Below, piece after piece: positions 35,207 to 37,484 of a stretch of 59,875 nucleotides of DNA (position 1 is the first letter of the stretch; each line of letters begins with the position of its first letter). The translations under genes and the position numbers were made by a program. Under the pieces are notes generated by a model, which worked only from the letters and a program-made list of their open reading frames with translations, was not told the DNA's origin and searched no databases. This DNA comes from Nitrospira sp. CR1.2 (GTDB taxonomy: Bacteria; Nitrospirota; Nitrospiria; Nitrospirales; Nitrospiraceae): contig WIAG01000019.1 of assembly GCA_014055495.1 (NCBI GenBank), positions 1 through 59,875 on the forward strand. Direction: 5' to 3'.

Positions 35207-35419
35207 CTAGGGTTCGTTTCGTGCCGAGGCATTGTAGAGCCAGTACAGGGCAATACCTCCGATCACAGCGATACCCAGGCCCAGCAAGGCATGGGTATCG
35301 AATCCCAGCGGCCCCACAAACAGCTCCGCCACCCGCGGCACGACCACGGTGGCAATGAGCACCAGAGCCAACGCGATCAGGTGCACTCGCAGATAGATGG
35401 GTTCGCCGGGTTTGCGCAT
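35207..35419 (-). CDS. Small membrane protein of unknown function
   Basis: The 70-aa product has two hydrophobic segments (about 12-33 and 43-63) and a short charged N-terminus. No family recognised. It starts 90 bp after the IDO-family gene on the same strand. Translation could begin at GTG 35422 or ATG 35419. Composition matches coding DNA of the region but size leaves doubt. Confidence 0.55.
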   Translation of the reverse strand: MRKPGEPIYLRVHLIALALVLIATVVVPRVAELFVGPLGFDTHALLGLGIAVIGGIALYWLYNASARNEP

Positions 35420-35509
35420 CACGAGATCAATTGATTCAGCACGCAGTGTACGAACTTTGGCGCCGGCATTCCAGCCCGGAACGGTGGTACGACTCTCGAC
35501 TCCGCAGCG

Positions 35510-36715
35510 TTATTCCTGAATCAGACGTTTCGTGTCTTCCAGATGCTTGGTCAAATAGGGCATGAACGGCGTGCCGCCGGTTCCGACTGCAGTAGGATTG
35601 CCGGCATGCGACTGATGCTGCCGAAAGATATACCGCTCCGCGTAATCCACGTGTATCTGACGGAACTGGGCCAACAGATCCACACAGGCGCAATAGGCCC
35701 GCCAGAGTTCGGGGTGCGTCGACTTCCGGTCGCGGACATACCCGAAGAGCAACGGACGCCCTTCACAGTCCCTACGCGACTCTAGCGCAGCAAGAAACGC
35801 CCGATGCCGTGGGGGCATATACTCTCGCATCTCCACGAGATATTGCGTCAGCGGATCCTCGGCATGGAGCACGCCCAGCCCAGCATCCAAAGCCGGCACG
35901 ATCGAACTTTGCGAACCGGTCTCGCCGCGGAATTGTTGCGGCTGTTCGGCATAGTCAGGCACGCCTTCGTAGATGATGCCGTTGGGTAAAGCCGGGCTAT
36001 TCTTCCAGCCGTGAATGTACGGGCGCACACGACTGTAATACATGTACGGATCGCACCGTTCCGGCATGCGAAGCAGGGTCTCACGCATGGCGTCCTGTGC
36101 CCCGGCGAGCACCCCTAGGCCGGCCAACACCGCGTCCACTCGACCCTCTCGCGCCCCATGATGTGCCTGCACGAGGCCCCGTAGCCCAGGCCCCGCCTTC
36201 GCTTCAATATCGATGTGGATCAGCACAAACCACTCCTCGTCGAGGCCACCCAGGAAATTCTGCAGCAGCACGATATTGCCGAGCTCGATAGGTTTATGGA
36301 GATCCAGACGCCGCCAATTGTGCAACGCGTAGGAGGCGTAGGACAGCACCGGCGGGCGCCCGAGCTGTTGGGCAACCTGACACCACGGACGAGCGAGACT
36401 CGCCGGCAGCCGGGTTGCGGGATGGTCGGGATCCTCCCAGACATAGGCATGACCGAGGAACGACAGGACCCGCATCACGGATCGAAAGACATCCAACCCC
36501 CACTCATCCGCCACAACGCCCATGATGTCCTGGCGATCCTGGATAACCGCACGTACCTGTCGAGCACTGAGCAGCTTGGGCAACTCGGTACCGATCTGAT
36601 TGAGAATTGGTTCCTGGGGCAACCGTTCGAGAGGATCCGTGACGGGAAGAAACCCGCGGTCAGGCGAGAGGTCGAACGCGGAGAGTGACAGCGGAGGAAC
36701 ATCTGAAGTCGCCAT
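35510..36715 (-). CDS. Indoleamine 2,3-dioxygenase family heme protein
   Basis: The 401-aa product aligns by motif with IDO: FVLIHIDIEAKAGPGL, YEGVPDY..FRGETGSQSS (262-271), MPPRHRAFLAALES (300-312) and the C-terminal GTGGTPFMPYL (378-388). His355 in FRQIHVDYAERYI corresponds to the proximal heme ligand (human H346). IDO inserts O2 into the indole ring of tryptophan or related indoles to give N-formylkynurenine. SD AGGAGGG lies five bases before ATG 36715, so the longer ORF to 36928 is rejected. No other kynurenine-pathway gene is in the window, so the physiological substrate is open. It is cytoplasmic, with no signal peptide. Confidence 0.88.
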   Translation of the reverse strand: MATSDVPPLSLSAFDLSPDRGFLPVTDPLERLPQEPILNQIGTELPKLLSARQVRAVIQDRQDIMGVVADEWGLDVFRSVMRVLSFLGHAYVWEDPDHPATRLPASLARPWCQVAQQLGRPPVLSYASYALHNWRRLDLHKPIELGNIVLLQNFLGGLDEEWFVLIHIDIEAKAGPGLRGLVQAHHGAREGRVDAVLAGLGVLAGAQDAMRETLLRMPERCDPYMYYSRVRPYIHGWKNSPALPNGIIYEGVPDYAEQPQQFRGETGSQSSIVPALDAGLGVLHAEDPLTQYLVEMREYMPPRHRAFLAALESRRDCEGRPLLFGYVRDRKSTHPELWRAYCACVDLLAQFRQIHVDYAERYIFRQHQSHAGNPTAVGTGGTPFMPYLTKHLEDTKRLIQE

Positions 36716-36899
36716 GGGCCCTCCTGCGCCGAATGCGAATACGTTACTGTACCACAGGCCGTTTGCCCACTGCTGCCAGACCTCAGCTCGCCTACCGAGA
36801 AGGTGGATGATGTACCATTCGTAACCGGGTACGGAGCAGGATGGATGAGGAGAGTGCCGGAACGTGACTCGAACGGTCAGAAAAATGCTGCACGGAGAA

Positions 36900-37484
36900 C
36901 TAGGTCTCCGCCGGCTTCTCCCGCACATTGAATTGATTCATGGCCGTCGCGACGTCGCGGTTGAGCAGCAATTCGAGAGCGTCCACCGCTCGGTCCAGAC
37001 AAGGTTCATATGCAACCCGCTCCTCCCGGGAGAGCGATTCCAGCACGTAGTCCGCCGTATCTTGTCTCGGCGCCGGACGGCCCACCCCGATCTTCAGTCG
37101 AACGAACTGCGGCGTCCCTAACGCTTCGATCACGGACTTGATGCCGTTATGACCGCCGCTGCCGCCGTCCCGCCTGATGCGCAAACGACCCGGCTCCAGG
37201 TCCAGATCATCATGCACCACTACCAGGGCATCGGGAGTAAGACCGAGCTCGCGAAGGAGACCTTTGAGGGGGGGACCGCTGAGATTCATCCAGTCGAGCG
37301 TACCGGCGAGCTCGACGAGTTTGGAACCGGCGCGACCCGAGCCTCGCTGGGCCGCGCCCTTCCGGGTGAGACGTATCGACCACCGCGCCGCCGCCCGCTC
37401 GATTACCCAGCAACCGATATTATGCCGCGTGTCGGCATATTCGGATCCGGGATTGCCCAAGCCAACGAGCAGGCGCACCGCCAC
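36900..37484 (-). CDS. pth: Peptidyl-tRNA hydrolase
   Basis: Pth frees tRNA from prematurely released peptidyl-tRNA. LVGLGNPGSEYADTRHNIG contains the catalytic His21, and VVHDDLDLEPGRLRIR with GSGGHNGIKS are the other family signatures. Length 194 aa is usual. It abuts rplY and belongs to the common prs-rplY-pth operon. Confidence 0.96.
   Translation of the reverse strand: MAVRLLVGLGNPGSEYADTRHNIGCWVIERAAARWSIRLTRKGAAQRGSGRAGSKLVELAGTLDWMNLSGPPLKGLLRELGLTPDALVVVHDDLDLEPGRLRIRRDGGSGGHNGIKSVIEALGTPQFVRLKIGVGRPAPRQDTADYVLESLSREERVAYEPCLDRAVDALELLLNRDVATAMNQFNVREKPAET

Follow-up and report, generated by a model that had tools for sequence, protein, structure and literature searches.

An indoleamine 2,3-dioxygenase family gene near-universal in the nitrite-oxidising genus Nitrospira

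The 401-residue protein encoded at positions 35510-36715 of the window (the whole 59,875-base stretch of Nitrospira DNA analysed here) is, as judged from its sequence, unambiguously a genuine member of the indoleamine 2,3-dioxygenase (IDO) family and a predicted heme enzyme, and its gene is an old core gene of Nitrospira. We consider this additional member of a known family to be, probably, a stand-alone heme dioxygenase that would act on tryptophan or on an indole amino acid akin to it and would not feed NAD synthesis. An earlier note on this DNA had called an IDO at these positions, which are right; it left the strand unstated, and the gene lies on the minus strand (Table 1). The host, which that note took for an autotroph, does belong to a nitrite-oxidiser genus, one that includes Candidatus Nitrospira defluvii (FP929003.1), and Nitrospira-type nitrite oxidisers are autotrophic.

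Table 1. Positions of the gene, of codons discussed in the text and of flanking features in the window
Feature	Positions	Strand	Basis or remark
IDO-family gene, 401 aa, ATG at 36715	35510..36715	-	open frame, Pfam, phmmer, homologue alignment
Codon of H355, aligned to the proximal heme ligand H346 of hIDO1	35651..35653	-	alignment
Codon of E265 (hIDO1 G262 position)	35921..35923	-	alignment
Codon of R231 (hIDO1 R231, pairs with substrate carboxylate)	36023..36025	-	alignment
Codon of H167 (hIDO1 S167 position)	36215..36217	-	alignment
AGGAGG, ribosome-binding-site-like	36720..36725	-	direct sequence reading
TGGTACAGT, putative promoter element of IDO itself, like an extended -10	36746..36754	-	conservation
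GGCAGCAGT, partly conserved block found upstream of the putative -10 in genus loci	36769..36777	-	consensus, sequence
pth (peptidyl-tRNA hydrolase), upstream neighbour, not part of the function	36900..37484	-	
71-aa ORF just downstream of IDO	35207..35422	-	no Pfam/NCBIfam match

Reading frame, family and heme pocket

The minus strand of this interval is a single open frame of 401 codons. Two other readings were set aside: the plus strand of the same interval, which has stops in that frame, and a longer frame from 36928, which overlaps pth and is disfavoured by an alignment of 21 Nitrospirales homologues that supports the start at 36715. Against Pfam-A the sole family matched was PF01231 (IDO), scoring 288.9 bits where the cut-off is 26, with an E-value of 7.3e-86; the match is full-length, residues 11-396 aligning to positions 2-410 of the 412-position profile, and lies far beyond chance. 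No NCBIfam model matched the 401-aa protein at E-values up to 1, nor, at the same threshold in Pfam, did the tryptophan 2,3-dioxygenase (TDO) family PF03301. A phmmer search of the PDB matched IDO2 (5e-57) and human IDO1 (about 1e-40). An AlphaFold2 model based on an input of 21 Nitrospirales sequences, with a mean pLDDT of 78.5 and a pTM of 0.82 (residues 127-156 and 369-382 being of low confidence), had the IDO fold: the 50 best PDB matches listed for it were all IDO2 or IDO1 structures, and its TM-score against human IDO1 and IDO2, normalised by query, was 0.79-0.82.

The diagnostic IDO blocks and the proximal His reported earlier are indeed all there, namely H355 together with Y126, F163, E171, R231 and the GTGG loop at 378-381, the latter five kept relative to human IDO1 in letter and number. 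The pocket is not identical to that of mammalian IDO1, from which it departs by S167 to His, F226 to Tyr, G262 to Glu (E265) and S263 to Thr (T266), and there are further changes of A264 to Gly (G267) and C129 to Tyr. We compared 89 distinct Nitrospirales cores, drawn from 115 sequences in which genomes were contained twice: Y126, F163, H167, Y226, R231, E265, T266 and G267 were invariant in 89/89, and H355 was His in 88, with a gap in the remaining one. The His at position 167 is no Nitrospira speciality; because it occurs in all 41 prokaryotic rows of our wider alignment (L153 among them repeats L124), a mammalian-type pocket is no condition for PF01231 membership.

According to passages of PMC5700043, the tryptophan-holding residues of human IDO1 are R231, Y126, F163 and those of the GTGG loop. 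The carboxylate of the substrate pairs with R231; G262 helps the GTGG loop to hold the amino-acid end, contacting its ammonium/carboxylate side; and a water links S167 to the indole NH. An S167H structure of human IDO1 with tryptophan and cyanide is available, going by its title (PDB 6cxu). If the Nitrospira protein does dioxygenate tryptophan or a similar indole amino acid, a ferrous heme held by H355 would bind O2, the substrate would be held by R231 at its carboxylate and by the GTGG loop at its amino side, and the C2-C3 bond would be opened to give N-formylkynurenine, or its counterpart where the substrate is a relative of tryptophan; H167, in place of S167 of human IDO1, could touch the indole NH directly. 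The product would not be routed to NAD, and a low-flux use, such as turning over tryptophan or indole or making a small molecule of the kynurenine type, seems likelier than bulk catabolism.

In the alignment, the Glu at the human IDO1 G262 position is a charge change inside the predicted pocket, and it counts against this main reading. Together with the Thr at the S263 position, likewise present in 89/89 cores, it speaks for a different and more doubtful reading, in which an IDO-fold enzyme would hardly touch tryptophan and would act instead on another indole, in peroxide or superoxide handling, or in NO or nitrite chemistry. Retention of the tryptophan-holding R231, Y126, F163 and GTGG loop argues against such a shift; in its favour, some bacterial IDOs are reported to be poor with tryptophan (PMC4217691). 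That text describes IDO as having three main branches, with useful tryptophan degradation only in the branch of mammals, fungi, Gemmatimonas aurantiaca and Streptomyces scabiei, and, citing Yuasa 2011, gives the IDOs of Erythrobacter litoralis and Neptuniibacter caesariensis as very slow with tryptophan. PMC12921851 places IDO among the heme-dependent aromatic oxygenases, with monooxygenase action possible.

Distribution, descent and surroundings of the gene

Among the 29 genus genomes IDO was found in 28, in single copy each, including all 24 high-quality ones; in one of the 28 (G009) it is split in two pieces, and the genome without it (G019) is an assembly of about 1030 contigs. In our phylum sample IDO occurred in 88/395 genomes and 11/169 genera, all matches falling within the same order. 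TDO occurred in only 8/395 genomes of this sample, two of them (G282 and G337) included by weak partial matches, and the window's genome had no TDO match. IDO is thus commoner than TDO within the phylum sample, and the earlier statement that it is far rarer than TDO in bacteria fails here. Four of the eight TDO genomes (G216, G255, G262 and G301) also have IDO, elsewhere in the genome; these four Nitrospirales genomes go against the mutual exclusion of bacterial IDO and TDO stated in PMC4191572. Outside the phylum, relatives had 50-56% identity in scan segments (among the best 80 of at least 541 confirmed), and IDO occurred in 9/321 genomes of a class sampled around a gammaproteobacterial locus and in 10/72,556 records of a plasmid collection.

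The gene is absent or broken in some relatives and is therefore not essential throughout the family, a point that weighs against the main reading. One relative has an internal stop (G063), two have the gene in two pieces (G140 and G340) and four have partial copies (G070, G285, G336 and G096); each of these could be an assembly error. IDO-bearing family members also looked larger in genome size than 20 IDO-lacking ones, with 287 further negatives excluded, an observation to which we give no weight. The broken and partial copies are what one could cite for a recent chance acquisition devoid of function, which we regard as most improbable given the presence of IDO in 28/29 genus genomes, the fully supported Nitrospirales clade described below, dN/dS values of 0.07-0.22 (nine pairs) and a gene G+C content of 60.4% against 60.1% for the window.

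The phylogeny proposed earlier, against fungal, animal and cyanobacterial IDOs, was run with vertebrate IDO, fungal and cyanobacterial IDOs lying outside the tree rows, as do the tested IDOs of Gemmatimonas aurantiaca, Streptomyces scabiei, Erythrobacter litoralis and Neptuniibacter caesariensis. Two trees were made, of 42 rows and then of 41 rows without L158, which has a very long branch; L153 was removed as a copy of L124. In both, the Nitrospirales IDOs formed one clade (support 100/100) inside a wider bacterial IDO set, outside which fell haloarchaeal, Methylocystis and vertebrate IDO; a clade of 31 had support of 99/94 with L158 and 87/92 without it. The earlier note had offered placement with a PLP-free non-dioxygenase clade as grounds for rejection, which is inapplicable because IDO uses no PLP. 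Vertebrate IDO is farther in the tree from the window protein than are the proteobacterial copies, one of Sphingomonadales among them, and the window protein may therefore belong, contrary to the main reading, to the low-turnover branch of IDOs, for which, we infer, the pair of Sphingobium and gammaproteobacterial copies stands.

In the window IDO is preceded by pth, rplY and prs and followed by genes for an outer-membrane beta-barrel protein and rpsF, and the genus gene order is ispE-prs-rplY-pth-IDO-71-aa ORF-beta barrel-rpsF-ssb, in which ispE and ssb were identified by eye. The absence of an adjacent kynurenine gene, claimed from the window alone, was thus borne out, and it extends to the Nitrospirales loci compared, where ORF clustering and a family search of selected neighbours found no kynurenine gene near IDO. 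In other Nitrospira the gene often follows metK and ahcY, with a spacing of about 100-330 bases where measured, and in other phyla the genes around it differ again; no conserved operon partner was found across the loci compared. The 71-aa ORF, hydrophobic by eye, adjoins IDO in 11 of 12 loci of the genus type, even where pth has moved away. Elsewhere, six loci have a short ORF, of 126-179 aa in those measured, directly upstream of IDO; five of these loci are titled Fimbriimonadales or Armatimonadota (L120, L122, L125, L126 and L129) and one is from an unclassified bacterium (L119).

A motif of the form TGGTA(C/G/A)AGT, or close to it, lies upstream of IDO in 27/28 genus loci, 25 of them found by pattern and two (L004 and L016) read by eye as TGGTAAAGT, with none in L028; across all 59,875 bases of the window its strict form is seen just once. 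In most of 26 other-genus loci TGGTAGAGT or a near form lies within 200 bases upstream, despite differing neighbours. It is this conservation that leads us to infer an extended -10 promoter of IDO's own, and the GGCAGCAGT block upstream of it could be a -35 or an activator site. A generic sigma-70 promoter scan gave no site near the gene, and an Rfam search, made for an RNA element upstream of IDO, gave no match anywhere in the window. IDO would then apparently be its own transcription unit, not a part of a kynurenine operon.

Kynurenine-pathway genes, NAD and loop type

IDO performs the first step of de novo NAD synthesis in fungi and animals, and the earlier note suggested this role here, together with a genome search for nadB, kynureninase and kynurenine formamidase. 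The search found nadB (TIGR00551) over its curated cut-off in 28/29 genus genomes, the window's own included, and kynureninase (TIGR01814) over cut-off in 0/29, which together make a NAD route very unlikely; we leave it only the slightest probability. Kynureninase over cut-off was equally missing from 26 further IDO-bearing Nitrospirota (0/26) and from those genomes of the gammaproteobacterial class sample that have IDO (0/9). The 3-hydroxyanthranilate dioxygenase family PF06052 was found in 0/29 genus genomes, yet also in 0/14 controls.

Arylformamidase (TIGR03035) over cut-off was likewise found in 0/29 genus genomes, with weaker matches in 26/29. The window's genome does encode an arylformamidase-like protein, at 139 bits against a curated 223, which gives some encouragement to the view that IDO is the entry to ordinary tryptophan breakdown, in which enzymes that went unrecognised would turn kynurenine into kynurenic acid or anthranilate. 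We find this unlikely: a copy of that quality (about 140 bits) is limited to 3/29 genus genomes, the window's included, and so is no general partner of IDO, and the results for kynureninase in the genus (0/29) and in further Nitrospirota (0/26) stand against it as well. A PF04199 "cyclase" was considered as a formamidase partner and rejected, the common-type copy in the window's genome, a 272-aa protein, scoring 84 bits against the arylformamidase model and the better copy being that of the same 3/29. A PF04199 protein is present in 26/29 genus genomes; the one at L144:4206-5024 (G000:C97), of 272 aa with a hydrophobic N-terminus that looks signal-like by eye, is possibly an exported amidohydrolase. 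Kynurenine as an end product is also possible, a conserved second enzyme not having been found in these searches.

Among the Nitrospirales we observed TDO clustered with a kynureninase-like PLP enzyme in four loci, L170 (G262), L171 (G216), L172 (G255) and L174 (G146), IDO being present in 3/4 of these genomes. The kynureninase-like gene adjoining TDO scored 107-152 bits against a cut-off of 246 in G216, G255 and G262 and was identified by eye in G146; in G255 the TDO itself scored 400 against a curated cut-off of 390.7. As this pair is separate from IDO, which sits elsewhere in the genome, the tryptophan-to-kynurenine cluster of these few Nitrospirales is built on TDO, which is a further point against ordinary breakdown starting from IDO. 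That a prokaryotic IDO can serve in such breakdown is suggested by haloarchaeal plasmids, on which IDO adjoins an annotated kynU in 3/3 loci (L150, L151 and L161), with an alpha/beta hydrolase and trpB also present in 2/3; these loci are likely tryptophan-breakdown clusters.

The presence of kynureninase also varied with the loop that includes the human IDO1 G262 and S263 positions. Outside Nitrospirota, kynureninase, either scoring over cut-off or annotated next to IDO, accompanied 5/6 IDOs with the Ser type of loop, that is, Ser at the S263 position with a small or other residue before it, vs 2/21 with the E/Q type (Fisher p 0.0014, the rows not being independent and no correction for descent being made). 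The test counts L154 (E-S-G) with the E type and excludes L134 (S-T-A loop, no kynureninase), G482 (partial IDO), and two Methylocystis plasmids and Sphingobium, whose chromosomes were outside the search. With that qualification, the association favours the idea of an enzyme that hardly touches tryptophan; against it, two E-type genomes, G410 and G414, have kynureninase. More specifically, and tentatively, we speculate that there may be a stand-alone E-T-G-loop class of IDO with a distal His, common to Nitrospira and scattered bacteria, whose natural substrate and role are other than tryptophan breakdown and which nitrite oxidisers keep as a core, separately transcribed gene.

Relation to known systems

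Open-licence literature on Nitrospira or nitrite oxidisers and indoleamine or tryptophan dioxygenase yielded nothing on this protein; a paper retrieved in this way deals, in the passages at hand, with IDO of Candida and with a homogentisate dioxygenase of Nitrospira, and the accessible part of PMC5350241 makes no mention of Nitrospira. Being near-universal, single-copy, apparently self-transcribed and unaccompanied by kynureninase, the IDO of this well-studied nitrifier group offers a clean test case for the role of bacterial IDO.

Human IDO1 and IDO2, respectively 29% and 35% identical to the window protein where the sequences align, share with it the family, the fold, the proximal His, R231, F163, the GTGG loop and E171. 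They differ from it in having S167 or T167, F226 and C129 where it has H167, Y226 and Y129, in having G262-S263-A264 where it has E265-T266-G267, and in that no kynureninase stands behind the window-type IDO in its genus (0/29). The haloarchaeal plasmid IDOs (Haladaptatus, Halomicrococcus and Natronosalvus) are of the same family and also have His at the S167 position, but are only 34-37% identical, adjoin kynU and carry an A/G-S-G loop. Those of Fimbriimonadales, Chloroflexota, Bdellovibrionales and Proteobacteria are closer, mostly 40-55% identical and in most cases with the same pocket signature; they have other neighbours, and kynureninase is over cut-off in 4/18 such genomes. TDO (PF03301) belongs to the same reaction class with no sequence match to the window protein, and its distal-pocket His55 presumably resembles H167.
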